Source: a virus
Reading direction: 5' to 3' (one strand)
Length of the DNA stretch: 64,000 bases
IMG/VR virus record: IMGVR_UViG_3300043409_001318
Location: 120,353-184,352 of that record
Under the pieces are notes generated by a model. The model ran no database searches, was not told where the DNA came from, and was given only the letters and a program-made list of their open reading frames with translations. The first letter of the stretch is position 1; each line of letters begins with the position of its first letter. Below are positions 21,799 through 48,113 of the stretch, one piece after another. A program made the translations under genes and the position numbers.

Positions 21799-24700
21799 AT
21801 GAAATTCGCTCATATTGCAGATACACACATTAAAAACTTAAAGTATCATAATGAATACAAAACAATTTTTAATAAAATGTATGAAACTCTCTTAAATGAG
21901 AAAGTAGATTACATTATTCATTGTGGTGATATCGCACATACGAAAACTCAAATCTCACCAGAGTTTGTTGAAATGGCAGCAGATTTCTTTATCAATCTTG
22001 CTGCTATTGCTCCAACTTATATTATTCTTGGTAATCATGATGGTAATTTAACAAATGATAATCGACAAGACGCATTAAGTCCAATTGTAAACGCTCTTGG
22101 TATGGAAAATCTTCATCTTTTAAAGAAGTCGGGCGAGACAAAACTAAAAGATAATTTTTCTCTTAATGTTCTTTCTGTCTTTGACGAAGAAGGATGGGTA
22201 AAACCATCTGATCCAAACGCAGTTAATATTGCTCTTTATCATGGTTCTATTAGTGGAGTAAAGACAGATACTAATTTTGTCTTGGAACATGCTGACCATG
22301 ATATCTCTATCTTTGAGGGGCATGATTATGCTTTCCTTGGGGATATTCACAAGACAAATCAAATCTTAGATGAAGGTGGAAGAATTAGATATCCCGGCTC
22401 CACGGTTCAACAAAATCATGGTGAGACAAACGATAAAGGATTTCTTATTTGGGATATTCAAGACAAGCTCTCATTTGACTGCCAGCACGTTTTAATTCCA
22501 AACCCTAATCCTTTTATCACATTAGAACTAAAAGAGAATGGAGAACTTCCAGAGGGTATTAACGTGCCTCCTAATGCTCGTCTTCGGCTTCTATCTAAGA
22601 ACAATCTACCAGCAGAAATGATGAAGAACGTTGGCGATGTAGCAAAAGAAAAATGGAAGCCAGAAAGTATTTCTTTCTTATCAAAGAACGTTGCCAGATC
22701 AAAAGAATTAAGAGAAGTTGTAGATGGAATTAATAAAGAAGATCTACGAAATCTAAAAGTTCAAGAACAACTTATTGAAGAGTTCTTGGTAAATTATAAA
22801 GTTGAAAGAGAAATTCTTGATAAAGTTTTTGAGATCAACAAAAAATATAATACAGAAGTAGAAGCAAAAGAAGAAGTTGCTCGTAATGTAAATTGGAATG
22901 TAAAGTCAATTGAGTGGGATAATCTTTTTAATTATGGCGAAGGAAACAAAATTGATTTCTCAAACCTTAAAGGAATTGTAGGCATCTTTGGAAAGAATTA
23001 TTCTGGTAAGTCTTCTGTAATCGATAGTATCCTTTATACTCTTTTCAACACAACCTCAAAGAACGAAAAGAAAGTATCTAACGTTATTAATACAGCCAAA
23101 AAGAACGCAGTAGCAAATCTTACAATCTCAATTGGAGATAGCGATTATGTAATTGCTCGTAGTTGTGAAAAAAGCATGAAGAAGAATGGAACAGAGGAAA
23201 CTAAAACTGAACTAAATTTCTTGTGTGATGGTGTTTCTATGAATGGTAATACAAGAGTAGAAACAGATCAAAACATCAAGAAACTATTTGGGACTATGGA
23301 TGATTTCTTACTAACCTCTATGTCTTCCCAGCTTGACTCACTTTCTTTTATTCGTGAAGGTTCAACAAAAAGAAAAGAAATCTTAGCTCGCTTTTTGGAC
23401 CTTGAATTGTTTGATGCTAAAAACAAATTAGCAAAAGAAGAAAGTGGATCACTAAAAGCAATTATTAAAAAACTTGAAGCAATTGATTACGATACAGAAA
23501 TCTTAAAACTTGATAATGAACTTGATACTACAAACCAACTTGTAAGTCATAATAATTCTAATTCTGTAAAGATTTCACAAAATCTTGTAGAACTTCGTAA
23601 TGAGATTTCTATTATTGAAGGACAACTTAAAAATAACAACACAGAAATAATCAATATTAACGAGACATTAGAACGTAAAACATATCTGGAACAAAGTTTA
23701 GATAAAGCCACAAAGCAAAAAAGTTCTAAACAAAGTGAGCTTGGTAATAAACAAACCGAACTTGAAAAAATTAAATCAATCATTACCAAAGATTATTCTA
23801 ATATTGATGAATTAAAAGAAAAGAAAAAGCAAAAGAATGTAGTTATTTCTAACCTTCAACAAATTAATTTTGAACTACAATCAATTACAAAAGAAGAGAC
23901 AGCACTTAAAAGTAAAACAGAACTTCTAACAAAAGTTCCATGTGATTCAAAATTCCCAAGTTGTATGTTTATCAAAGATGCGGTAGAGGCTTCGCCAAAA
24001 CTAATTGAAACACAAGTTAAAAAGAAAAAGATAGAAGAAGATAAAGAAGCAACTTCAAATCTTCTTGAAAGTTATAAAGGCATTGACGAACAAATCAGCA
24101 AATACGAAACCCATGTAAATGATATTCATAAATTTGAAAAAGAAGAATTACAACTAAAAGTAGAAGTTGAGAAGATGAACACGATCATTTCAAACATTAA
24201 AAAAGAAATGATTATCACAGAAGAAAAAATTGATAAATACAAAAAGAATGAAGAAACATTTAGCAGGGCAACAGAATTAAGAATTGATAAAACACAGAAA
24301 GAAAAAGAACTTAAATTGTTAGAAGAAGTTTCAAAAAAGACTAACGAAGAACTTACCAAATCTCATATGAAGATTGGTTCTTTAACTGAAAAAGTAGCTA
24401 CCCTTCAAGGAGCAAAAAAAGAGTTAGAGGATTACAGAAATCAATTTGCTGCTTATGATTACTTTATGAAAGCAACAAGCACAAATGGAATTTCCTATGA
24501 AATTATTAAGAAGAAACTTCCATTTATTAATGAAGAGATTTCAGCAATTCTTTCTAATGTTGTTGATTTTAATGTGTTCTTTGAGGACGATGGTTCAAAA
24601 CTCAATATCAATATTCAGCATTTAGATAGTGACCCACGACCAATTGAAATGGGCTCTGGTGCAGAGAAATCTATTGCTGCTATGGCTATACGACTTTCTC

Positions 24701-26819: not shown

Positions 26820-27212
26820 ATGAAAGATCCAAATGAAATTGTAAAAATTGAAAAAGCCATAGCACAAAAGTATGGTGAAGATACAATAGCAAATCCAAAA
26901 CATTATTGGAATGAAGAAAAAGAAAAAGAATATGTAGAGCAATTAAAAGAATTATCAGCAATACAAACAAAACAAGAAGAAAAAGACCAAAAAATAAATA
27001 TTGATGGTATTTTTATTTCTAAAAAACTACTTAATAAAGATAGCAAAAGAACTTGTCCTATTTGTTCTGTTTATTCATTTAGCAGCAAAGACGATCTATA
27101 TATGAATAGATATGAATGTTGTTACAAATGTTATATTCAATGGGTAGAAGGAAGAGAAGAAAGATGGAAAACAGGTTGGAGGCCAAATGAAAGTAACGTT
27201 AACAAGAAGTGA
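26820..27212 (+). CDS. Zinc-ribbon-type small protein (130 aa)
   Basis: The C-terminal half holds CPIC (about residue 78-81) and a later CCYKC (about 103-107), enough for a four-cysteine zinc site, followed by YIQWVEGREERWKTGWRP, a Trp/Arg-rich segment conserved in aquatic phages in my recollection. The N-terminal half is a charged helix. It overlaps the next gene by 26 bases. A role in packaging or virion assembly is only suggested by neighbours. Confidence 0.55.
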   Translation: MKDPNEIVKIEKAIAQKYGEDTIANPKHYWNEEKEKEYVEQLKELSAIQTKQEEKDQKINIDGIFISKKLLNKDSKRTCPICSVYSFSSKDDLYMNRYECCYKCYIQWVEGREERWKTGWRPNESNVNKK

Positions 27213-27507
27213 ACTAAAACAAATAATTCAAGAAGAATGGAACAGAGCAGAAATTTTGGAACAAAGTTCTCCAACTGGCGGATATGACGAAACAGTCGAG
27301 GGACAAGATCAAGAATTAGATTATGAAGGTTACATGACAAAAAGCCAACTTTTTAAAATTGGTGAATATGCTTTAAAACTTCACGATATGATTAACGACG
27401 GCGATAATCTACCAGAGTGGATGCAATCAAAAGTTTCTCAAATGGAAAAAGATATTGGCTCTGTCTACCATGCACTTAATTATGATACAAAAAGAGGAAC
27501 TATATAA
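27187..27507 (+). CDS. Small protein with (K/R)QIIxEE N-terminal helix (106 aa)
   Basis: The N-terminus MKVTLTRSELKQIIQEEW matches a helix motif found in at least four other small proteins between here and 36.9 kb. The remainder, about residues 50-105, reads as a helical domain (FKIGEYALKLHDMINDGDNL, then PEWMQSKVSQMEKDIGSVYH). The start lies inside the previous gene, and the stop shares a base with the next ATG (TAATG). A virion-internal or head-assembly role is inferred from the shared N-terminus and the neighbouring terminase. Confidence 0.6.
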   Translation: MKVTLTRSELKQIIQEEWNRAEILEQSSPTGGYDETVEGQDQELDYEGYMTKSQLFKIGEYALKLHDMINDGDNLPEWMQSKVSQMEKDIGSVYHALNYDTKRGTI

Positions 27508-28076
27508 TGGCTACAACCCTTGAAATAATCCAAGGCATCTCACAAGCTGCCGCAAACGCATACGACGGCTCACATATGGCAAAATATAATGCTGATGGTG
27601 AGGAAAGAAAGATCGGACTTCGTAGAGAAGACGGTGATCCAATATTGGACTCAAGAGTTATTGATGGTTTTAAAGTTAAGTTCAAAGGCAACAAACTTTG
27701 TATTACTTACCAAAGTGAAATTTCTATGAAAGAAGTTCACAAAGGTGGAAAGTTTGAAAACGAAATGGAACAAGTTATGGCTGACATTGTTAAGTTCTTA
27801 AAAAAAGAATATAAGACAATTACAAAAAATAGTTTATCCCTAAAAGCAATTGGAGAAGTTGATATATTTGTTCAACCAATTTCAAGAACCAGAACAGACC
27901 TTAGAATGTATCAAGAGTTTGAAATTTCTTCATTAGATAAGAAAGCAGTTATTTCCGTAGGGCTTCCAAGTGAAGATATTGTAAATGACGTAACAAGAAA
28001 ATTTCTTGCTATGGGAAGAGAGAAAGCTAAGAAACCTTCAAATGTAACAAGACCAGACGAAAAGAAAAAAGAATAA
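27507..28076 (+). CDS. Conserved protein upstream of terminase (189 aa)
   Basis: Coupled to the preceding gene by TAATG and ending 8 bases before the terminase ATG. It has an alpha/beta core (VKFKGNKLCITYQSEIS, MKEVHKG, then a helix VMADIVKFLKKEYKTI) and a C-terminal strand-rich part (ISRTRTDLRMYQEFEISS), and it ends in a Lys-rich tail. The position is that of a small terminase subunit, but no HTH or coiled-coil motif typical of gp16 is clear, so I leave the function open. Confidence 0.5.
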   Translation: MATTLEIIQGISQAAANAYDGSHMAKYNADGEERKIGLRREDGDPILDSRVIDGFKVKFKGNKLCITYQSEISMKEVHKGGKFENEMEQVMADIVKFLKKEYKTITKNSLSLKAIGEVDIFVQPISRTRTDLRMYQEFEISSLDKKAVISVGLPSEDIVNDVTRKFLAMGREKAKKPSNVTRPDEKKKE

Positions 28077-28084
28077 AATGAAAA

Positions 28085-29674
28085 ATGTCTACAGCATACA
28101 AATTAACAAAAGAACAAGTTAAGTCCGAAATTGTAAAGTGTGCTAAAGATCCAATTTATTTTCTAAACACATACGCAAGAATTTCGGACACACAAAAAGG
28201 TCCAATACCTTTTAGAACTTATAGTTTTCAAGACGAAGTTCTAAAAGATATGAAGGACTATCGTTTTAACGTAGTTCTAAAAGCCCGTCAGTTAGGTCTT
28301 TCAACAATCGTAGCAGGTTATATAGCTTGGCTAATGTTGTTCCATAGAGACAAGAATGTTCTTATCTTAGCAACCAAATTACTTTCAGCATCAAATATGG
28401 TTAAGAAAGTTAAGTATATTATTAAAAGTTTACCAGATTGGTTGATGATTGCTGATGTATCAATCGACAATAGAAACTCATTTGAACTTACAAATGGTTC
28501 ACAAATTAAAGCTTCCGCTACGTCTGGTGATGCTGGACGTTCGGAGGCTCTTTCTTTACTTGTTCTGGACGAAGCTGCGTTCATTGAGAACATGAAAGAC
28601 CTATGGACAGGTGTATATCCTACGCTTGCTACCGGTGGTCGTTGTATTGGTATCTCAACTCCAAATGGTGTAGGTAATTGGTTTCATCAAACTTACTTAG
28701 ATGCTGAGACAGGCACAAATGAATTTCACCCAGTAAGACTACATTGGTCAGTCCATCCAGATAGAGATCAAGCTTGGTTTGAAAGAGAAACCAAGAATAT
28801 GTCTAAAAGAGAAATCGCACAAGAATATGAATGTTCTTTTAATGCTTCTGGTGAAACCGTAGTTGGTGCAGAACAATTAGAATATATAGAAAAGAATTGT
28901 AGCGAACCAAAATTTAGAATTCACATAGACAGAAATCTTTGGGTATGGAAAGGATATAATCCAAACCATTCGTATGTTCTTGTAGCAGATACAGCAAGAG
29001 GCGATGGAAAAGATAATTCAGTATTCCATCTTCTTAATCTTGATACTATGGAAATAGTAGCAGAATATCAAGGAAAAATAACAACAGAAGACTTTGCTGA
29101 TCTTGTTATCACAACAGGCAAAGAATATAATAATTGTATGGTAGTTATAGAAAACAATAATCTTGGATTTTCAGTCTTAGAAAAGATTGTTGATAAAGGA
29201 TATACAAATGTTTATTATTCTACCAAAGGTTCTGCTGAATATATAGATCAAATCTCAGCAGAGGGAACAACAAACACGGTCCCCGGATTTACTACTTCAC
29301 ATAAATCAAGACCTCTTATAGTAGCAAAGATGGAAGAATTTGTTAGAAATAAAAGTGTTAAAATAAATTCTATAAGAACCTTCCACGAACTAAGCACATT
29401 CATATGGGTATTAGGAAGACCACAAGCGATGCAAGGATACAACGACGATTTAGTTATGTCCTTGGCAATTGCTTGTTGGGTCAAGGATACGGTATTCCAA
29501 ACCAATCAAAGGGAACTGGAATATAAGAAAGCCATATTGACAGGCTTCACAAAAAGTAATACTATATTTGATACTAAAATTTCGGGGATGCAAGGATACA
29601 ATAGAGACTTGTCTGTATCCTTAGAAAGAGCGAAACAAGAACACGCACAATATTTTTGGATATATAAAGGATGA
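28085..29674 (+). CDS. Terminase large subunit (gp17-like packaging ATPase-nuclease)
   Basis: 529 aa. The ATPase has a Walker A variant KARQLGLST (66-74), Walker B LLVLDEAAF with D162/E163, and coupling motif GISTPNG (189-195). The C-terminal RNase H-fold nuclease has D302 in VADTARGDGKD, E356 in VVIENNN and D454/D455 in GYNDDLVMSL. This is the T4 gp17 arrangement: it pumps DNA through the portal and cuts concatemers. It is followed three bases later by the portal gene. Confidence 0.96.
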   Translation: MSTAYKLTKEQVKSEIVKCAKDPIYFLNTYARISDTQKGPIPFRTYSFQDEVLKDMKDYRFNVVLKARQLGLSTIVAGYIAWLMLFHRDKNVLILATKLLSASNMVKKVKYIIKSLPDWLMIADVSIDNRNSFELTNGSQIKASATSGDAGRSEALSLLVLDEAAFIENMKDLWTGVYPTLATGGRCIGISTPNGVGNWFHQTYLDAETGTNEFHPVRLHWSVHPDRDQAWFERETKNMSKREIAQEYECSFNASGETVVGAEQLEYIEKNCSEPKFRIHIDRNLWVWKGYNPNHSYVLVADTARGDGKDNSVFHLLNLDTMEIVAEYQGKITTEDFADLVITTGKEYNNCMVVIENNNLGFSVLEKIVDKGYTNVYYSTKGSAEYIDQISAEGTTNTVPGFTTSHKSRPLIVAKMEEFVRNKSVKINSIRTFHELSTFIWVLGRPQAMQGYNDDLVMSLAIACWVKDTVFQTNQRELEYKKAILTGFTKSNTIFDTKISGMQGYNRDLSVSLERAKQEHAQYFWIYKG

Positions 29675-29677
29675 TAA

Positions 29678-31687
29678 ATGGCAGATCAAAATAAGAATAA
29701 CACTAAGAACATAGACTCAGCTTTATTTAAAAGACTAACAAAGCTTTTGTCTGGTCCTATAGTAAATTATAATCAACCAGTTCAAAGTAGATATAGACGT
29801 AACCAAATGGATAAACTTGGTTCAAAGTTTACTTCTGCTTCTGGTTTAGAGTTTAAGAAAACTGCTTATAATCCTTATGAGAATTTCTCTTCCAAACTTA
29901 TGACAAATCAAAATCGTGCCGAAAGGTATATAGATTTTGACCAAATGGAATACATGCCAGAGATAGCATCTGCCTTAGATATTTACGCAGATGAAATGAC
30001 TACATCAAACGAACTTACTCCCTTAATGAGTATCAAATGTCCTAACGAAGAAATTAAAACAATTCTTCAAACACTTTATATTAAAACACTTAACTTAGAC
30101 GCTAACTTGTTTAATTGGTGTAGAAATATGTGTAAGTATGGAGATCACTTTGTTTATCTTGATATTGATGAACATTTAGGTATTAAATCTGCTATTGGTC
30201 TTCCATCAAATCAAGTTGAAAGAATGGAAGGTAAAGATCCAACCAATCCAAATTATGTTCAATTTCAATGGAACTCCGCTGGTATGACGTTTGAGAATTG
30301 GCAAGTAGCACACTTCCGTATTCTTGGAAATGATAAACATTCTCCATATGGAACTTCTGTTTTAGACTCGTCAAGAAGAATTTGGAGACAACTTACTTTG
30401 CTTGAAGATGCGATGATGGCTTATCGTATTACAAGATCTCCAGAACGTAAAGTATTTTATATTGACGTTGGAAATATTCCTCCACAAGAAATCGAACAGT
30501 TCATGCAAAGAGCCATGACTACGATGAAAAGAAATCAAATTTTAGATGCTACAACTGGTCGCGTTGATCTTCGCTATAATCCTATGTCCGTTGACGAGGA
30601 TTATTTTATTCCTGTTCGTGGTGGAGTAAATAATAATAAAATTGAAGCACTTCCCGGTGGTCAATTTGCTTCTGCTATTGAGGACGTAAAATATTTAAGA
30701 GACAAATTATTTGCTGCTCTTAAAGTTCCTATGTCTTATCTTATTAGAGGAGATGGAGCAAGTGAAGATAAAGCAACATTAGCACAAAAAGATGTTCGCT
30801 TTGCAAGAACCGTTCAAAGATTACAAAGAGTAGTTGTTGGAGAATTAGAAAAGATTGGTATAGTCCATTTGTTTACACTTGGATACAGAGGATCAGATTT
30901 AATTTCATTTAAACTTTCTCTTAACAATCCATCAAAGATTGCAGCACTACAAGAACTTGAACATTGGAAAACTAAATTTGATGTTGCTGGTTCAGCTACC
31001 GAAGGGTATTTCTCTAAACGTTGGATTGCTCACAATATATTTGGTATCTCCGATGAAGAATTCCTCCGTATCCAAAGAGAACAATTCTATGATCGTAAAT
31101 TCACAGCTACACTTGAAGCAGCAGGAGCACAACCACAAGGAGGTGGCGGCGGCGGTGGTGGAGGTGGCCTTGGAGGCGGCTTAGGTGGTGGACCAGAAGA
31201 AATGCCACCAGATACAAGCCCAGAAGGAGGCCCACCAGAAGCCCCAGAAGGTGGAGGAGCACCAGAAGGTGGAGTAGGAGGCGCAGAAGCCCCAGAAGCC
31301 CCACCAGCAGCAGGAGACGAGGGAGGAAGCACATTATTAGCAGCACCCCCCGGTAAAAGAAGAGATACGGCAGGAAAAGTAATAACAACAACTCCAGCTT
31401 CAAAAGGAAAATGGTATGAACCAGTTTTCAATAGAGGCGACGATAAAAGGAATATTGGAGCAAGAGCCAGAGGGTTTAAAGCTTCTGGTGGAGGTTTCAC
31501 AGCAAGTCCAAGTGTTAAAAACATTTTCCCCGGTCTACAAGATATTAAATCTTTAGCAAATGCAGCAGGTATTAGTGAAACTTCGCAAGAAAGATACACA
31601 GATGAAGAATACGAACTATTTACATTAGAAAAAGAAACTAGAGTTCTTTTAGAAAGTCTGGAGATAAAAAAGAATGCAAAAGCTTAA
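29678..31687 (+). CDS. Portal protein (gp20-like) with Gly/Pro-rich insert
   Basis: 669 aa, immediately after the terminase. Conserved gp20-type stretches include FDQMEYMPEIASALDIYADE (about 88-107), VYLDIDEHLG, and the stem and loop region PEEDxF-like YNPMSVDEDYFIPVRGG (about 305), then DVKYLRDKLFAALKVPMSYL. Residues about 487-560 are a low-complexity Gly/Pro/Glu insert that T4 gp20 lacks. The C-terminus carries a short basic and acidic tail. It forms the dodecameric DNA channel at the head vertex. The end overlaps the next gene by 14 bases. Confidence 0.93.
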   Translation: MADQNKNNTKNIDSALFKRLTKLLSGPIVNYNQPVQSRYRRNQMDKLGSKFTSASGLEFKKTAYNPYENFSSKLMTNQNRAERYIDFDQMEYMPEIASALDIYADEMTTSNELTPLMSIKCPNEEIKTILQTLYIKTLNLDANLFNWCRNMCKYGDHFVYLDIDEHLGIKSAIGLPSNQVERMEGKDPTNPNYVQFQWNSAGMTFENWQVAHFRILGNDKHSPYGTSVLDSSRRIWRQLTLLEDAMMAYRITRSPERKVFYIDVGNIPPQEIEQFMQRAMTTMKRNQILDATTGRVDLRYNPMSVDEDYFIPVRGGVNNNKIEALPGGQFASAIEDVKYLRDKLFAALKVPMSYLIRGDGASEDKATLAQKDVRFARTVQRLQRVVVGELEKIGIVHLFTLGYRGSDLISFKLSLNNPSKIAALQELEHWKTKFDVAGSATEGYFSKRWIAHNIFGISDEEFLRIQREQFYDRKFTATLEAAGAQPQGGGGGGGGGGLGGGLGGGPEEMPPDTSPEGGPPEAPEGGGAPEGGVGGAEAPEAPPAAGDEGGSTLLAAPPGKRRDTAGKVITTTPASKGKWYEPVFNRGDDKRNIGARARGFKASGGGFTASPSVKNIFPGLQDIKSLANAAGISETSQERYTDEEYELFTLEKETRVLLESLEIKKNAKA

Positions 31688-32477
31688 ACTCAAACACAAT
31701 AAGAAAAGAAACACAGCTTTTCTTTTTGAGTCATTAACAAAAGAATTAACAAAGACAATCGTAAATAAAGACGAGAAAACAAAACAAATTATTTTATCTG
31801 TTATTAAAGAACATTTTAAAAAAGGTTCAATACTATCAAAAGAATTAGATGTTTATAAATCTCTTTATGAAACAAGAGGTCTTAATAAAGATACAGCCAA
31901 TAGAATGTTGAATGAAGCAAAAAGAATGTATGCTACTTTTATGCCTCAAGATATTTTTAATCAACAAACCAGAATTATAAATGATGTAAATAAAAAAGTA
32001 AATGCTTCTGTCTTTACAAACTTTATGTCTAATTACAAAGACTTAGCAACAATAGCTCAAATCTTTGATAACGAAATTCCTATGAAGACAAGAGTTATAT
32101 TAGAAGAATATTTAATTGATAGATTGTCAACCCAAGATGATCCACAAAATAATCTTAAACCAATTGATAGTCTTGTATATAAAGAATTCGTCAAGAAGTT
32201 TAACGATAAGTATGGTGCTTCTTTAATGGAAGAACAAAAACAACTTCTTACAAAATATATTGCTTCATATTCAAACGACGATATTGATTTCAAAGTTTAT
32301 CTTAATGAAGAAATTGGAAGAATAAAACAAATTGTTATTTCATCCAAACAAATCACAGAAAGTAAACAAAGAGAAGGGTTGGTTAATATTTTAGAGTCAT
32401 TTAGAACAAATCAAATAACTCCAGCCATGATTGAAAAAGTTTTGAAACTACAACAATTAGTTAAGGAACTTGTTTAA
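31674..32477 (+). CDS. Helical head-locus protein after portal (267 aa)
   Basis: Begins inside the end of the portal gene. The N-terminus is basic (KLKLKHNKKRN), followed by TAFLFESLTKELTKTIV, and the whole protein is strongly alpha-helical and charged, without cysteines. The TAxLxExLxxELTK pattern after a basic start is familiar from proteins next to portal genes in aquatic T4-like phages. It may be a prohead core component; this is inferred from position and helicity only. Confidence 0.55.
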   Translation: MQKLKLKHNKKRNTAFLFESLTKELTKTIVNKDEKTKQIILSVIKEHFKKGSILSKELDVYKSLYETRGLNKDTANRMLNEAKRMYATFMPQDIFNQQTRIINDVNKKVNASVFTNFMSNYKDLATIAQIFDNEIPMKTRVILEEYLIDRLSTQDDPQNNLKPIDSLVYKEFVKKFNDKYGASLMEEQKQLLTKYIASYSNDDIDFKVYLNEEIGRIKQIVISSKQITESKQREGLVNILESFRTNQITPAMIEKVLKLQQLVKELV

Positions 32478-33052
32478 TGTCAATAAAGATTAAAGTTAAA
32501 GACGATAGCATGAAAGGAATTGGGGAACCAGAAATCCCCAAGACCAAAGTTCGTCTTGATATAAGAAAAACCTTAGATGGTAATTTTATCATCCAAGATC
32601 ATCCTTATATTGATATTATAATATCTCCATCAAAAAATAAAATTTTAGCCTTATCTACTATTGCGATGGATGATAAAGTATATTATACTCAAAATAAATA
32701 CTTTGACTTTCTTTACAAGCGTGGAGTAATAGATCCATCAACAATTCAAGCTGGAAATATTTATGCCTCAATGGAAGCTGCTATCCCTCAAACAACAGAG
32801 AAAGTAGATCCTATTGAAGTTATTATATTTTCAACTGCTTTGTTTATAGATAAAGAAAGACCTTCGTTTGAATATGAGAAGGCTATGAGAAAAATGCAAG
32901 ACGATTATCTTACTGACCCAAGTGATCAAGACACAACTGAACTTGGAGAAGTGCCACAGAAAGCTCGTCAAGGTTCAATTGGAACTGCTGCTTACTCTCT
33001 TAATAAACATTACAATATCGCTTATTTAGGCGAAAGGAAAGACAAAAAATGA
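32477..33052 (+). CDS. Conserved head-locus protein (191 aa)
   Basis: The ATG overlaps the preceding stop by one base (TAATG). Residues 1-110 form a beta-rich domain (KVRLDIRKTLDGNFIIQDHP, then IDIIISPSKNKILALS), and 110-190 are helical with a Lys-rich end. No catalytic motif is seen. It lies between portal and protease genes. Function unknown, probably related to head assembly. Confidence 0.5.
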   Translation: MSIKIKVKDDSMKGIGEPEIPKTKVRLDIRKTLDGNFIIQDHPYIDIIISPSKNKILALSTIAMDDKVYYTQNKYFDFLYKRGVIDPSTIQAGNIYASMEAAIPQTTEKVDPIEVIIFSTALFIDKERPSFEYEKAMRKMQDDYLTDPSDQDTTELGEVPQKARQGSIGTAAYSLNKHYNIAYLGERKDKK

Positions 33053-33294
33053 AACTCACAGAAAATTATTTAAGAAATATGATCAAACAAGTTATTAAGG
33101 AAATGGATTATGGTACGTTACCAACGAACCCTACGTCTAACTTTAAGGAAGAGCCAGTTGATACTGATCTTCTTTCTTCATTAGAAGACCAAGGATATAA
33201 AGTTAGAGAAATGGGTAATGGTAGTTATGAAATTATACATCCAACAGATTCATTTAAAAGTTATATTTTACAGCCAAAACTTAATAGAATGTAA
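33049..33294 (+). CDS. Small protein with N-terminal KQVIKE helix (81 aa)
   Basis: It overlaps the previous stop by 4 bases (ATGA). The N-terminus has MIKQVIKEMD, a variant of the (K/R)QIIKEE helix shared by several proteins of this locus, followed by a Pro/Asn linker and a short beta-rich C-terminal part (LEDQGYKVREMGNGSYEIIH). It could be an internal head protein. Confidence in its being a real gene is good because of the coupling and lack of any other frame. Confidence 0.55.
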   Translation: MKLTENYLRNMIKQVIKEMDYGTLPTNPTSNFKEEPVDTDLLSSLEDQGYKVREMGNGSYEIIHPTDSFKSYILQPKLNRM

Positions 33295-33300
33295 TTAATA

Positions 33301-33612
33301 ATGTTCCTCCCATACTTCATACTAATTTGTTATGGTTTAACCAATATCCTTGTTTATGGTTCTATATTTAATTGTATAAGACCAAAACAAGGATTATTGG
33401 GAGAACTATTCAAATGTCCTATGTGTATGGGATTTCATGTTGGATATATAATTGCTCTATTATTAAATGCTTCTGATCTATTTAGTATATCAATCAACAT
33501 AATCGATATGTTTATGTTGGCTTGTCTTTCATCGGGGACTTCTTATGTTCTTTGTTCATTATTCACGGATTTTGGAATTAATTTCAATATCAACAAGCAA
33601 GATAACAAATAA
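33301..33612 (+). CDS. Membrane protein with CPMCMGF motif (103 aa)
   Basis: Three hydrophobic segments (about residues 3-22, 42-60 and 64-88). After the first, on the loop, lies FKCPMCMGFHVGYI, resembling the CPxCxGFW motif of DUF1360-like small membrane proteins. The family function is not known. It sits among head-assembly genes just before the prohead protease; in T4 prohead initiation occurs at the inner membrane, so a membrane role in assembly is possible but speculative. Confidence 0.55.
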   Translation: MFLPYFILICYGLTNILVYGSIFNCIRPKQGLLGELFKCPMCMGFHVGYIIALLLNASDLFSISINIIDMFMLACLSSGTSYVLCSLFTDFGINFNINKQDNK

Positions 33613-33642
33613 GTAAACTAATTAAAATAGTCGGAGATAATT

Positions 33643-33732
33643 ATGAAAGTTAATTTAACACAAAGCTTTTGGACTCGTAAGTGGGCTCTACAACCAGTTC
33701 GTCTGTGTTGCAGGGGCAAGCCGAAAGGTTAG
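33643..33732 (+). CDS. Very small basic protein (29 aa)
   Basis: A 29-codon ORF, MKVNLTQSFWTRKWALQPVR then LCCRGKPKG, has a strong CGGAG Shine-Dalgarno 7 bases upstream and ends 12 bases before the protease ATG. It is the only ORF in the 132-base gap and is more GC-rich than its surroundings in its 3' half. It is basic, with two Trp and a Cys pair. Function unknown; a short RNA element instead of a peptide is an alternative. Confidence 0.45.
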   Translation: MKVNLTQSFWTRKWALQPVRLCCRGKPKG

Positions 33733-33744
33733 GAAAACATATAA

Positions 33745-34338
33745 ATGAATAAAACGTTATTAAGAGAATTTTTTGAATTATGCCCCGATGGAATCTGCGA
33801 AGACATACTTACAGAGTCCGATAAACACTTTATTAAAAGTGGTGGTATGATGTTGTCTGGTGTAATCCAAAGAGCAGATGCAAGAAATGGAAATGGAAGA
33901 ATTTATCCTCATTCTGTTTTATCGAGAGAAATGGATACATACAAACAACTTGTTCAAGAAAGAAGAGCACTTGGAGAATTAGATCACCCAGATCAATCAA
34001 TAATTAATCTTAAAAATGTTTCCCATCTTGTCACAGAAGTATGGTGGAGTGGAAAAGATGTAATGGGAAAGATCCAAGTTCTTAACACCCCATCTGGTCA
34101 AGTATTAAGAGAATTAGTTAACGCTAATGTTAAAATTGGTATATCTTCAAGAGGTACAGGTTCTGTTAGAGAAAACAGAGGCGAAACTATTGTTGAAGAT
34201 GATTTCCAATTAATTTGTTTTGATATTGTTTCGGAGCCTTCTACTCATGGAGCCTTTATGTTTCAAGAGAGAAAAGGAAATGTAAACGAAAATAAACAAG
34301 CAAGAGTTTCAAATCTTATCAAAGATATTTTAAAATAA
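33745..34338 (+). CDS. Prohead core protease (gp21-like)
   Basis: 197 aa. The family signatures are present: NGNGRIYP (48-55), the catalytic histidine H81 in LGELDHP, and the serine in IGISSRGTG (S134/S135), followed by D160 in CFDIVSEPST. In T4 this serine protease sits in the prohead core and cuts scaffold, core proteins and capsid protein after (L/I)xE. A TTAGGA Shine-Dalgarno precedes the ATG. It lies in the middle of the cluster of IKEE-type small proteins, its likely substrates. Confidence 0.93.
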   Translation: MNKTLLREFFELCPDGICEDILTESDKHFIKSGGMMLSGVIQRADARNGNGRIYPHSVLSREMDTYKQLVQERRALGELDHPDQSIINLKNVSHLVTEVWWSGKDVMGKIQVLNTPSGQVLRELVNANVKIGISSRGTGSVRENRGETIVEDDFQLICFDIVSEPSTHGAFMFQERKGNVNENKQARVSNLIKDILK

Positions 34339-34352
34339 AAGGAGTTTTATAA

Positions 34353-34685
34353 ATGCAACTTACAACACAACGTCTCAAGCAAATCATCAAAGAAGAACTT
34401 GAAGCAATCGTCTCGGAAATGAGCGACGAAACAGAAACAGAACTTACAGCAGAAGAAGAAAAAGTAGCTTCACTTGAACAACAACTTGCAGAAGCCAAAA
34501 AGAAAGTTGAAATGGAAAAGAAAGGTGGCAAAGAAACTGCTATGAAAGGTAAACAAGCTGCTATGAAAGGTAAAAGCGCACCAGTAGGCAAAAGAGGAAC
34601 AGCCCCCGCTGCCACACCTATGAAAGCAAATAATGTTGGCAACCTTTATGGCAAGGGCGCAACAAAAATGTCTACAAAAAAGTGA
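34353..34685 (+). CDS. Small head-locus protein, IIKEEL N-terminus, basic tail (110 aa)
   Basis: An AAAGGAG Shine-Dalgarno precedes the ATG. The N-terminus TQRLKQIIKEELEAIVSEM gives the clearest copy of the shared helix, with IKE and VSE triplets that fit T4-type protease sites. Residues 25-60 are an acidic to mixed coiled coil, and 60-110 are Lys/Ala/Gly-rich, with two AMKGK repeats, as in DNA-binding internal proteins. A hairpin terminator follows. Internal (packaged) protein or core protein is the inferred role. Confidence 0.6.
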   Translation: MQLTTQRLKQIIKEELEAIVSEMSDETETELTAEEEKVASLEQQLAEAKKKVEMEKKGGKETAMKGKQAAMKGKSAPVGKRGTAPAATPMKANNVGNLYGKGATKMSTKK

Positions 34686-34693
34686 AATAAATT

Positions 34694-34715
34694 AAACCTT
34701 AATTGAGGTTTTTGA
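34694..34715 (+). terminator. Weak hairpin terminator
   Basis: AAACCT (34694-34699) pairs with AGGTTT (34706-34711) across a 6-base loop, followed by TT. It lies directly after the preceding stop codon. Confidence 0.45.
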
Positions 34716-34719
34716 ATAT

Positions 34720-34747
34720 GAGGTGGTGTATTTACTTACATCACCTC
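34720..34747. terminator. 9-bp hairpin overlapping a promoter-like element
   Basis: GAGGTGGTG (34720-34728) pairs with CATCACCTC (34739-34747), with one G-U pair and a 10-base loop. It lacks a long T-run. Its last base begins the CTATTTAT element, so folding could couple termination to promoter control. Confidence 0.4.
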
Positions 34748-34754
34748 TATTTAT
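34747..34754 (+). promoter_or_regulatory. Late-promoter-like element CTATTTAT
   Basis: It ends 21 bases before the ATG of the next gene and is followed by an AAGGAAA Shine-Dalgarno at 34761-34767. It follows two hairpins in the spacer. Confidence 0.5.
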
Positions 34755-34775
34755 ATTTAAAAGGAAATCTTGTTT

Positions 34776-35540
34776 ATGAATGTTAATGAAACTAAAGTTA
34801 GACAAATAATCAAAGAAGAACTAAAACAATATTTAATTGAAGAAGGTTTTTTTGATACCATAAAAAGTTTTGGTAAAAAAGTATTTGGTGGAGAACAAAA
34901 GAAAGGCAGAGACGAAACTGACAGACCAAGTTCACAACAAGTACAATCAGTTAGAGCAAATTATGCGAAAGACGTTCAAAGTTATAAATATGGATTTCCT
35001 ATAAAAGCTTTACCAGATTTGGAAAAAGCGTTAACTTATTATAGAACACTATCAAAACGTGATGAAGCTGGTGCTGTTGAAGCTGTAGCAAAAGTTATGA
35101 TGCATCTTCAAAGAAGTTTGGTTAAGAAAAAATCTTTGAATGATTTGGCTAATGGAGAAATTCAATCATACCAAACATTTATAAAAGATATAGAAGATCA
35201 TATTAAACAACCATCACTTGAACTAAATGAAAATCTATCTTCCGATAAAGCTATTGATACTGCACTTGTAATACCAAATAATATTGTTTCACAAGTATTA
35301 GTAGGATTACAAGATTTTATATTTGATGAATTATCAGACAAATATGATTTTAATGAAATATTTAATAAAGAACGAATAAGACAAGAATTTCAAGCATTAA
35401 AAAATGAAGTTAATAGTTCTGCCCCAAAAAAACAACAACAATCAAAACCAGCTTCGCAAACAAGTGCCGAAGAAGGTTTTACAGATACTTATTTAGAAGA
35501 AATTAGACGTAAGAGAGCGAAATGGATAAAAATGATTTAA
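34776..35540 (+). CDS. Head-locus protein with RQIIKEEL N-terminus (254 aa)
   Basis: The ATG at 34776 is chosen over a TTG six bases upstream because of the AAGGAAA spacing. The N-terminus TKVRQIIKEELKQYLIEEGF is a strong copy of the shared helix, with IKE and LIE triplets. The rest is helical and charged (SDKYDFNEIFNKERIRQEFQ), with a Gln/Lys/Ser linker at about 208-225. Repeated glutamates suggest a core or scaffold-like protein. It overlaps the next gene by 19 bases. Confidence 0.6.
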   Translation: MNVNETKVRQIIKEELKQYLIEEGFFDTIKSFGKKVFGGEQKKGRDETDRPSSQQVQSVRANYAKDVQSYKYGFPIKALPDLEKALTYYRTLSKRDEAGAVEAVAKVMMHLQRSLVKKKSLNDLANGEIQSYQTFIKDIEDHIKQPSLELNENLSSDKAIDTALVIPNNIVSQVLVGLQDFIFDELSDKYDFNEIFNKERIRQEFQALKNEVNSSAPKKQQQSKPASQTSAEEGFTDTYLEEIRRKRAKWIKMI

Positions 35541-35944
35541 AGAAAATTTTAAAACCTCTTGTTAAAGCCTTAGTAAAAGAAGCGATGCAAGAGGAATTAT
35601 CCACAGTAATAAGTGAGATAATAAAACAAACAGCAGGATCATCACAAATAGTTGAAAGAAAACAACCAACTATCGATCCAAGATTACAACAAGAAAGAAC
35701 GATTGCTAAACAACAAGCACAAAGCGAAAGAAAGAAGATGCTTGAAGAATTAAGCAAAAAGTCTTATGGTGGTATAAATATATTTGAAGGAACAACTCCA
35801 TTAGGAAAAGGTGGAGATTTAACAGAAGGCAGATCGTTAACACCATCAGCAGGAGAACCCTTGTCTGGTGTAGACCCACATGATCCGGGTGTTGATATTG
35901 GTGGCCTTCTTAAACTTACTGGTGGTTGGAGACAAATTAAATGA
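35522..35944 (+). CDS. Head-locus protein with helical N-terminus (140 aa)
   Basis: It starts 19 bases inside the preceding gene and ends overlapping the next start (ATGA). The N-terminus LKKILKPLVKALVKEAMQEE is a related but diverged amphipathic helix with a VKE triplet. The middle is a Gln/Arg/Lys helix, and the C-terminal 45 residues are Gly/Pro-rich. The tight overlaps show one operon with 34776-37210. Function unknown. Confidence 0.5.
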   Translation: MDKNDLKKILKPLVKALVKEAMQEELSTVISEIIKQTAGSSQIVERKQPTIDPRLQQERTIAKQQAQSERKKMLEELSKKSYGGINIFEGTTPLGKGGDLTEGRSLTPSAGEPLSGVDPHDPGVDIGGLLKLTGGWRQIK

Positions 35945-36936
35945 AAAGAATAACAGAGCAACAAATTAGAAAAGTTATAAGAGAAGAAATTAAATCTTAT
36001 CTTTTGGAACAAGAAGAACCAAAAAAAGATGATAAACCAAAATCTAAATTTAGAAAAATTATAACTTCTACAGCAGTTGCTTTGTTAGGATTTTTAGCTG
36101 GAACTTCCTATAACCCAGAAGTGCAAGCAGTAATACCAGCACCAATAGAAGACATTGGTAGTGATGGTGGTAGTGGTGGAGGTGGTAGTGGTAGTGGTAG
36201 TGGTCTGGAGGAACTATCAAATCTTATTGAACTTACTACGGAAGAATTAATAAAGTTAGGCGCAACAGAACAATACGCACAAAGTTTAATTTCTAGAACT
36301 GTTGAATATGGAAATATAGAATTTGAAAGGTATGTTACAAAAAAAGGTATTAAGGATCGAGACAGAGCAGAACAATATGAATCATTTATGTTATCTAGGT
36401 TTTCTGCTTTACAAAATCCAGAAGCACTTTCAAAAGTAGCATCACAAGATTTCTTACAACAAGCGCAATCAGTTGGTACACATCGCATTATGGCTACACA
36501 GATAAAACCAGTAACTAGAGAAACGAAGGTTGGAACACCTATTCCATCTTATTCTTTACAAGTTGCTTTTGCTTATGAAATGTTAACTATTGTTGAAGAA
36601 GAAGATAAATTACCAAAAGAAACACCAAAGGTATACACTCAAATGATTGTTGATTCTTTTAATAAAGAAACAAATTCTTATGTAATAATACCAACTATTC
36701 TTCCATTTTTCCAACAAGTAGCAAAAGAGGGTTCTCCATTCCAAAAAGCCATATTAGATGTAATACCACAAGTAAAAGTCGATGCTTCTATATTTGAAGA
36801 AGAACAAAATAATAATGTTATGGAAAAAATAAACAAAGGATTAGGTGCTACAGTTAGAAATAAAAAATCAGTAGAAGAAAATAAAGTTAATAAATTAAGA
36901 CAAAAAATAAACGAATTGAGAGGTGTTTATGTCTAA
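35941..36936 (+). CDS. Head-locus protein with IREE helix, membrane segment and Gly/Ser linker (331 aa)
   Basis: The N-terminus TEQQIRKVIREEIKSYLLEQ carries the shared helix with IRE and LLE triplets. A hydrophobic segment, ITSTAVALLGFLAGTS (about 41-56), follows a basic stretch, then a Gly/Ser linker (about 75-88), then a long helical domain. If the N-terminal helix is cut off in the prohead, the hydrophobic segment would be near the new N-terminus. It overlaps the bS21 gene by 8 bases. Function unknown. Confidence 0.5.
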   Translation: MKRITEQQIRKVIREEIKSYLLEQEEPKKDDKPKSKFRKIITSTAVALLGFLAGTSYNPEVQAVIPAPIEDIGSDGGSGGGGSGSGSGLEELSNLIELTTEELIKLGATEQYAQSLISRTVEYGNIEFERYVTKKGIKDRDRAEQYESFMLSRFSALQNPEALSKVASQDFLQQAQSVGTHRIMATQIKPVTRETKVGTPIPSYSLQVAFAYEMLTIVEEEDKLPKETPKVYTQMIVDSFNKETNSYVIIPTILPFFQQVAKEGSPFQKAILDVIPQVKVDASIFEEEQNNNVMEKINKGLGATVRNKKSVEENKVNKLRQKINELRGVYV

Positions 36937-37210
36937 AAGTAAGAATCTTCACGCAAAAGTAATCCCAAAGAAGGGAGAACCTTTTGAAAGAATGGTAAAG
37001 AGATTTTTAAAGAAAGTAAAAAAAGAACAAGTTATAGAACAAGTTAAAGATAGAAGATATTATGAAAAACCATCTGTTACCAAAAAGAAAGAAAAACTTG
37101 CTGGAATTGCTAGATGGAAAAAGTTTGAAGCAGATAAAAGAAAGAAAGAAACATTAAAAGAAGCTAATTATAATAAACGTGTAGATAACAATAAAAGAAG
37201 GGAAGATTAA
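36929..37210 (+). CDS. rpsU: Ribosomal protein bS21 homologue
   Basis: 93 aa, very basic. Residues 12-65 match bacterial S21: IPKKGEPFERMVKRFLKKV aligns with the ENEPFxxALRRFKR region, and DRRYYEKPSVTKKKEKLAG aligns with the RREFYEKPTxxRKRKxxx region. The C-terminus extends about 25 residues as a Lys/Glu/Asn tail. S21 sits near the 3' end of 16S rRNA and helps initiation; phage copies could replace host S21 on ribosomes and bias translation toward phage mRNA. The ATG at 36929 is preferred to an in-frame GTG at 36923. It is embedded in the head operon. Confidence 0.85.
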   Translation: MSKSKNLHAKVIPKKGEPFERMVKRFLKKVKKEQVIEQVKDRRYYEKPSVTKKKEKLAGIARWKKFEADKRKKETLKEANYNKRVDNNKRRED

Positions 37211-46355: not shown

Positions 46356-48113
46356 ATGTCTATTATAGAAAAGTTAACAGAGGGCATGGTTCACCGTGAC
46401 CTCGCAAGAGAAGGAACAGCCCTTCTTAAGAAATGGGAAAAAACAGGTCTTCTTGAAGGTATTCGTACAGAAAGATCACAACACACAATGGCTCGTCTTC
46501 TTGAAAACCAAGCAAAAGAGCTTCTTCGTGAGTCAAACTCAATGGCTGGTGGCGATGTAGAAGGTTTTGCAGCAGTTGCATTCCCAATAGTTCGCAGAGT
46601 ATTCGCTGGTCTTATAGCCAACGATTTAGTTTCAGTTCAACCAATGTCACTTCCATCCGGTCTTATCTTCTTCCTTGACTTCAAAGTTTCGGACAGCAAC
46701 GGTGCTCCAAGACTTGGTTATGGCGCAAATGATTCACTTTATGGTGGTGGCGTTCTTGGTCAACAAATCACTGGTGGTGTTTCACTAACTGGTGCAAATG
46801 CTGAGAAAGGCTTCTACAATATGAATAATGGTTATTCATCAGCAACAGGTTCAGCCGTTATCGCAACAACTATAGTTGCTTCTGGTTCGGTAACCGATGG
46901 TGGTATTCCAGTATTCGATGGTGGAACTGCTGCTTACACCGCTCTTTCAAGTCTTCTTCGTTTTGACGCAGACCTTGTAAGCGGATCAAACTTTGCTGCT
47001 GCAACTATTACACTTGCTTCACTTACTGGTGCTCAATTTAACGGTAGAGATTTCGTAGCAGTTTCTTTCGTTACAGCAAGCTCGGGCTTACCATCAATTA
47101 CTGATGGTCGTTTGGTTCGTCGTCTTACAAGAATTGACCCACTAGACTCAACAAAAGTGCTTGTTGTTGTTGAAGCTGCTGCCGGTGAGTCCGCTACTAC
47201 ACTTAAAACTGCACTTGATAACGTAGTTCAATGTACCTTCCCAATTACTGATGCTTTCGGTACATCAGTAGCTGCTGGTTCAACCAACGCTCTTGGTGCA
47301 ATTGCTGGACAATCAACTTGGGGTCTTGAAGGCAACTCAAACATTCCAGAAATTGATATAAGAATTGACTCAGTATCGATTACTGCTGTCACCAAGAAAA
47401 TGAAAGCAAAATGGACACCAGAACTTGGTCAAGACCTTAATGCTTATCACAATCTTGATGCAGAAGTTGAACTTACTTCAATTCTTTCGGAACAAATTGG
47501 TCTTGAAATCGACCGTGAAATTCTTGAAGACCTTATCAAAGGTGCAACTGCTGGTTCGTTCTACTGGTCAAGATCACCCGGTTTATTCGTAAATCGTGTA
47601 ACTGGTGTTGAAGTTGGTGCATCAACCAAAGCTCCAGACTTCACTGGTACTGTGTCACAATGGTATGAAACCCTCATTGAAACAATCAATGATGTATCAG
47701 CCCAAATCCACAGAAAGACACTTCGCGGTGGTGCAAACTTCATCGTATGTGGTCCAGAAACCGCTAACATTCTTGAATTCACTTCTGGCTTTAGAGCCAA
47801 AGTAACTCACGAAGACGAGAAGGGTGAAATTGGAGCAGTTAACGTTGGTTCAATCTCCAAGAAGTTTGACGTTTACGTTGATCCATACTTCCTTCGTAAT
47901 GTAATTCTAATTGGTCGTAAGGGTAGTTCATTCCTTGAGTCTGGCTATGTATACGCACCATACGTTCCATTACAAGTAACTCCTACCATCTTTGGTACTG
48001 ACGATTTCGTCCCACGCAAAGGTGTTATGACACGTTACGCTAAGAAAATGGTTAAGCCAGATATGTACGGCTTGGTCATTATTCGTGGTCTTCTTGGCGA
48101 AAGCGGTTCTTGA
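46356..48113 (+). CDS. Major capsid protein (gp23-like)
   Basis: 585 aa, with an AAGGAG Shine-Dalgarno. Residues 75-110 (FPIVRRVFAGLIANDLVSVQ and PMSLPSGLIFFLDF) align with the gp23 segment VRRAIPNLIAFDICGVQPM. In the N-terminal 60 residues, ELLRE ends at E59 and is followed by SNSMAGG, a fitting (L/I)xE cut for the prohead protease (T4 cuts gp23 at E65). Later segments EIDIRIDSVSITAVTKKMKA and FYWSRSPGLFVN are gp23-like. Codons are strongly optimised (CTT, CGT, GGT, AAC). A strong terminator follows. Confidence 0.93.
   Translation: MSIIEKLTEGMVHRDLAREGTALLKKWEKTGLLEGIRTERSQHTMARLLENQAKELLRESNSMAGGDVEGFAAVAFPIVRRVFAGLIANDLVSVQPMSLPSGLIFFLDFKVSDSNGAPRLGYGANDSLYGGGVLGQQITGGVSLTGANAEKGFYNMNNGYSSATGSAVIATTIVASGSVTDGGIPVFDGGTAAYTALSSLLRFDADLVSGSNFAAATITLASLTGAQFNGRDFVAVSFVTASSGLPSITDGRLVRRLTRIDPLDSTKVLVVVEAAAGESATTLKTALDNVVQCTFPITDAFGTSVAAGSTNALGAIAGQSTWGLEGNSNIPEIDIRIDSVSITAVTKKMKAKWTPELGQDLNAYHNLDAEVELTSILSEQIGLEIDREILEDLIKGATAGSFYWSRSPGLFVNRVTGVEVGASTKAPDFTGTVSQWYETLIETINDVSAQIHRKTLRGGANFIVCGPETANILEFTSGFRAKVTHEDEKGEIGAVNVGSISKKFDVYVDPYFLRNVILIGRKGSSFLESGYVYAPYVPLQVTPTIFGTDDFVPRKGVMTRYAKKMVKPDMYGLVIIRGLLGESGS

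Follow-up and report, generated by a model that had tools for sequence, protein, structure and literature searches.

We identified an N-terminal peptide of about 22 residues, hereafter the tag, that heads otherwise different proteins encoded around the head genes of a phage with a T4-like head module and that recurs, with unrelated bodies behind it, in contigs of related phages. Judged from sequence, the tag is most likely a new class of capsid-targeting propeptide. We consider it likely that it is a transferable peptide that works in the manner of the T4 capsid-targeting sequence (CTS), which it does not resemble in sequence, and that it would be cut off at about residue 22. In the proposed mechanism, the amphipathic helix of about 22 residues would carry a protein into the prohead as it forms, probably by attaching to scaffold or core. 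During maturation, the neighbouring gp21-like protease would cleave after the L-x-E that ends the tag and perhaps, in some proteins, after I-K-E as well, and the cargo thus freed within the head would be injected together with the DNA.

The window, i.e. the whole stretch of 64,000 nucleotides that was analysed, comprises positions 120353–184352 of the 184,352-base virus record IMGVR_UViG_3300043409_001318. It contains a T4-like head module (Table 1) followed by tail and baseplate genes, which were named in the same way as TerL and the portal. The prohead protease scored 97.8 bits with Pfam family PF03420 (cut-off 27) and thus belongs to Peptidase_S77 (gp21). In an alignment with 30 relatives, the expected propeptide end of the major capsid protein (...NQAKELLRE59, followed by SNSM) is likewise a conserved L-x-E, comparable to that of the tag.

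Table 1. Tagged proteins and head genes in the window (positions are those of the window; scores in bits refer to the tag profile).
Position	Strand	Feature	Tag and residues that follow	Basis
27187..27507	+	tagged protein, 106 aa	MKVTLTRSELKQIIQEEWNRAEILE, then QSS; about residues 1–25 (27187–27261)	11.2 bits
28085		TerL		ORF reading, no family search
29678		portal		ORF reading, no family search
33049..33294	+	marginal tagged protein, 81 aa	MKLTENYLRNMIKQVIKE, then MDYG; register shifted	7.7 bits, E 0.03
33745..34338	+	gp21-like prohead protease (Peptidase_S77), proposed tag cutter		PF03420 E 7.4e-28
34353..34685	+	tagged protein, 110 aa	MQLTTQRLKQIIKEELEAIVSE, then M (34353–34418)	31.5 bits
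34776..35540	+	tagged protein, 254 aa, basic	MNVNETKVRQIIKEELKQYLIEE, then GFF (34776–34844)	15.0 bits
35522..35944	+	conserved gene, 140 aa, helical, not a tag carrier		family search; AF2; tag profile
35941..36936	+	tagged protein, 331 aa	MKRITEQQIRKVIREEIKSYLLE, then QE (35941–36009)	13.4 bits
45287..46330	+	probable gp22-type scaffold		inferred from position directly upstream of gp23 and composition
46356..48113	+	major capsid protein gp23		PF07068 E 8.8e-60

The sequence-only reading had proposed a common N-terminal helix on six ORFs, and a regular expression for this helix matched only the N-termini of these six in the whole 64-kb window. The window ORFs were scored with a profile built from the tags of other phages, without rows from the window itself and without two near relatives; when all 223 window ORFs were shuffled 100 times, the same profile gave no score above 8.9 bits. 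The tag is clear on four of the six (27187, 34353, 34776 and 35941, named by start position) and borderline on 33049, for which relatives were looked for and none found; the sixth, 35522, carries none. ORF 35941 fell under the cut-off in the profile scan of the window ORFs, its score in Table 1 being that of the first 60 residues with composition correction off (E 5e-4), and two of its orthologues scored 18.8 and 19.8 bits with the tag profile. The start codon of 34776 is an ATG, the program's ORF start at 34770 being an upstream TTG. It had also been stated that the bodies differ beyond the helix, and this is true of the tagged proteins. The C-terminus of 34353 is basic and its mature form would have a pI of about 9.6, a hydrophobic segment lies downstream of the tag in 35941, and the AF2 model of 27187 (pTM 0.46) consists of a helix at residues 7–26, a low-confidence linker at 27–42, and helices at 42–68 and 77–103. 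Outside the window, the same genome encodes a further tag at 77000 (MKITEAKIRQVIKEEIQNVLNE, then M), the best match of all, and a partial tag at 23153.

The tag has the consensus MK[IL]TKxQLKQIIKEE[LI]xx[VA]LxE. Across 129 tagged proteins, whose bodies are unrelated, conservation spans residues 1–22 and is at background level thereafter. Of the positions beyond the core used for searching, residue 16 is L or I in 81%, residue 20 is L in 44% and residue 22 is E in 51% of these proteins. A motif [LIVM]xE is present within residues 19–28 in 92 of the 129, compared with 10–25 of 129 in windows deeper in the body, and is absent from residues 19–28 in the other 37. T4 gp21 cleaves after L/I-x-E (PMC9026906), and this motif ends the tag in most members but not in all: the later sites in the window are ILE25 (27187), IEE23 (34776), LLE23 (35941) and VSE22 (34353), the last of these proteins having L/I-x-E at IKE14 and LAE47. 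Because conservation continues to residue 22, the main cut is predicted near that residue, probably at L-x-E, and not after the helix-internal IKE, IRE or IQE (residues 12–14), where it had been placed before; the internal motif may be a second cut site. A glycine-capped amphipathic helix could be the source of part of the L...E pattern, which, like the 37 tags that lack the motif and the VSE of 34353, is a point against the cut model. Synonymous codons vary within the tag, indicating that selection acts on the protein.

That tagged genes lie around a gp21-like protease gene was borne out in the window, and the association holds across tagged records. Of the tagged records that are at least 60 kb long, 25 of 30 contain PF03420, compared with 5 of 19 in the baseline set (P 1.8e-4). 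The five tagged records that lack PF03420 look like fragments, since gp23 is missing from them too. The 23 tagged or protease-bearing records contain 1–12 tags each. Nearly all tags (112 of 113) are on the protease strand, a raw count that takes in any general strand bias of these genomes, and 61 of 113 lie between 20 kb upstream and 5 kb downstream of the protease gene, where 21 are expected; some lie far from it, a point against the model. The association may in part reflect the shared ancestry of T4-like phages.

For most of the 85 tagged proteins that were scanned, no known domain was recognised. Pentapeptide repeats identify two of them (best E 1.6e-50), and a third is a GNAT acetyltransferase (E 2.2e-8), all plausible injected effectors; others resemble ADP-ribosyltransferases by eye only. 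In another protein (L312:5356–6330, minus strand), MKNFGLIMESWRGFKKVVNE precedes a body resembling a DEDD 3'-5' exonuclease, which makes it a possible tagged enzyme.

The best support that the extension would be removable is indirect and comes from comparing cargo domains that bear different N-termini in different phages. The HVA1-type domain (YQGxxVxLNKP) has varied N-terminal extensions in T4-like isolates and metagenomic contigs, the isolates being C48C1, HTVC008M and Melnitz, for which the protease was confirmed, and immuto, for which it is annotated; protease state was checked for isolates and not for most of the metagenomic contigs. Just before this domain, 11 of 12 distinct extended sequences have [LI]-x-E and then A or G, the exception being Melnitz with MMESE. 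In CRP-902, CRP-901, Kolga and HTVC111P, isolates that were searched for the protease and lack it, the HVA1 protein begins with MA[KT]Y[QK]G at the predicted cut; that of HTVC202P, outside this search, has the same start. A like trend was seen for the DRCxRIAxRKY domain: several contigs and immuto have extensions whose end is near L-x-E, and CRP-901 and CRP-902 have no N-terminal extension. The two-helix domain of 27187 is headed by the tag here, by WFKYLTE followed by A in L163, and by MKTFKQLRE in cyanophage S-WAM2. A single protein of L442 (249–1061, minus strand) combines the tag, the DRCxRIAxRKY domain, an internal tag-like stretch and the HVA1 domain; Roseobacter phage CRP-902 has the two domains fused in it as two small proteins of their own.

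These observations also bear on a different role for the peptide, that of a helix for assembly or docking by which varied proteins would reach the portal, core or tail and which is never removed. Such a helix could be expected to look much like the tag, i.e. conserved and amphipathic, with the helix of the 27187 model giving way to a low-confidence linker, and the preference for L20 and E22 could be a continuation of the helix. We nevertheless consider this role rather unlikely, as conservation ends at a gp21-type site, the association with the protease is strong, and the HVA1 domains of protease-less phages begin at the predicted cut. It appears improbable that the peptide instead addresses some host or intracellular target (a compartment, membrane or chaperone) and has no role in the head: the tags are on the same strand as the head protease and cluster near it, none was found in the 23 baseline phage records, and the same cargo families bear T4-CTS-like N-termini in other T4-like phages, although the unknown function of most cargo would be compatible with such a target.

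The spread of the tag was assessed by searching viral contigs for LKQIIKEE with a degenerate DNA pattern, which yielded at least 160 matches in at least 120 stretches. Among the matches listed, an ATG lies at most 16 codons from the core in 147 of 160, with the core at residue 8 after the ATG in 111 and at residue 6 in 24, and the tag is thus located at the extreme N-terminus. The search of the genome and of related phages for more such proteins, suggested by the sequence-only reading, returned at least 129 non-redundant proteins with unrelated bodies (at most 5% shared 5-mers) in related phage contigs and, in the genome itself, 77000 and the partial tag at 23153. Tagged genes are consecutive in runs of up to five, and the tandem clusters at L109, L143, L174 and L187 would fit a single paralogous family with bodies diverged past recognition; the unrelated folds of the bodies (pentapeptide, GNAT, HVA1, helical) and the abrupt drop of conservation at residue 23 render this explanation very improbable.

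A control pattern with E and Q swapped matched 108 stretches and was rejected as a module, its matches being concentrated in two homologous families (the TerL N-terminus and a protein of about 173 aa). When bacterial and archaeal genomes were scanned, the longer MKITKxQLKQIIKEE had no match, versus 43 of 160 among the viral matches listed. K- and E-rich helices are frequent in AT-rich genomes, but chance or composition as the source of the tag is refuted by the window ORF shuffles, the swapped control and the genome-scan counts, and we regard its probability as negligible. The short core had 89 matches in bacterial and archaeal genomes, of which 54 are separated from the upstream stop by over 40 codons; about seven matches in environmental bins, mostly marine, are tag-like (L488, L490, L495, L496, L511, L522, L540) and may be phage contigs binned with bacteria or archaea. 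Searches of isolate phages with the bare tag by tblastn gave at most one weak match, a result made uninformative by the low-complexity filter. Among cultured phages, none with a strong tag was found; Microcystis phage Mel-JY01 and Flavobacterium phage immuto, which have the closest proteases, gave E 0.04 and 2e-4. Pfam and PHROGs returned nothing above chance for the tag itself, and the open-access literature yielded neither a description of this peptide nor proteomics of virions from a tagged phage.

ORF 35522, previously listed as a weaker carrier, belongs off the list: it did not match the tag profile (best 0.8 bits) and is a member of a full-length conserved family of its own (130–150 residues), whose gene is no more than 6 kb away from that of the protease in 73 of 92 loci. 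Its AF2 model has long helices at residues 3–40 and 53–79 at low overall confidence (pTM 0.23), and the protein is probably a component of the prohead core, for which we infer it to be a candidate. In related phages, tagged genes often sit between the 35522-type gene and the protease gene. With regard to a possible origin of the tag in the N-terminus of this family (MKKSELKQLIKPLVKECIHEVLLEEG), profile comparison gave a weak match (probability 8.7%, P 0.0039).

The closest functional counterpart is the CTS of the T4 proteins IPI, IPII and IPIII, likewise a short N-terminal peptide that precedes unrelated bodies and ends in the L/I-x-E motif of the prohead protease, and CTSs have been proposed as a general packaging route for varied proteins in T4-like phages (PMC9026906, section 2.6). 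The tag shares with this functional class the extreme N-terminal location, the unrelated mature bodies, the S77 prohead protease encoded by the phage and, in most members, the gp21 motif at its end. It is longer (about 22 versus 10–19 residues) and has 1–12 copies per record, and packaging and cutting have been shown in T4 whereas the tag is known here from its sequence. The alignment score of the tag with the T4 CTS MKTYQEFIAE was 11, which 71% of shuffles reached, placing it outside that sequence family, and the tag HMM had no match in the N-termini of IPI, IPII and IPIII. The earlier description of an analogous but unrelated tag is supported as regards a transferable, protease-linked N-terminal peptide with a gp21-type end on unrelated small proteins; its likely main cut site is revised to about residue 22. 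P1 DarB, compared by description only, is similar in that its N-terminal 30 residues bring a reporter into the capsid, and differs in that this was shown on one large protein, for which we found no gp21-type terminal site described (PMC9024508). In phiKZ, 201phi2-1 and SPN3US, many internal head proteins are cut by gp21-like proteases after a short motif ending in E (S/A-x-E in phiKZ; PMC9026906), and we found no common transferable tag described in that source. Kyanoviridae have T4-CTS-like N-termini on the same cargo domains as the tag (HVA1 in C48C1, the LPEW domain in S-WAM2), and a second class of peptide, MKLLxENWRxFLxE, occurs in the same contigs as the tag. Both resemble the T4 CTS, their scores being reached by 0.2–0.4% of shuffles; the tag does not.

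Of 119 tag loci, 11 also have this second class, and of 120 random loci none does. When it was scanned for separately, 17 of 18 exact matches continued into L-x-E; S77 was found in one of its seven records of at least 60 kb, which is a point against the cut model. Two neighbouring genes of L312 (925–1779 and 1792–2748; G000:C1 about 74924–76747) start with second-class peptides, MKLLLENWNRYLKE and MMKLLLENWKRYIKE, and have bodies that are kinase-like by eye. Second-class tags also precede a body starting with VVYHYT, possibly ADP-ribosyltransferase-like, in L449, L454, L457 and L461, and P-loop motifs in L452 and L462. At L085:12930–14230, the neighbouring proteins gp077 and gp076 of Flavobacterium phage immuto have a common N-terminal peptide, NF[ND]L[RK][SK]FL[TV]ENKLTxN, with an L-x-E-like end, and this peptide of immuto is a possible third tag class.

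Tentatively, marine and freshwater T4-like phages could use an interchangeable set of address peptides, i.e. the tag, MKLLxENWRxFLxE and perhaps NFDLKKFLTENKLT in Flavobacterium phages, to carry a changeable load of injected effectors, up to a dozen in number and readable from the genome sequence. If the tag acts as a capsid-targeting propeptide, head cargo would be recognisable from sequence alone, and hundreds of unclassifiable phage proteins would receive a predicted head location and mature N-terminus together with a likely role, injection at the start of infection. The mechanism shown in T4 and P1 would then extend to a large group of uncultured phages. The tag seems to be of separate origin, and it would also provide new candidate tags for the protein loading of phage heads.
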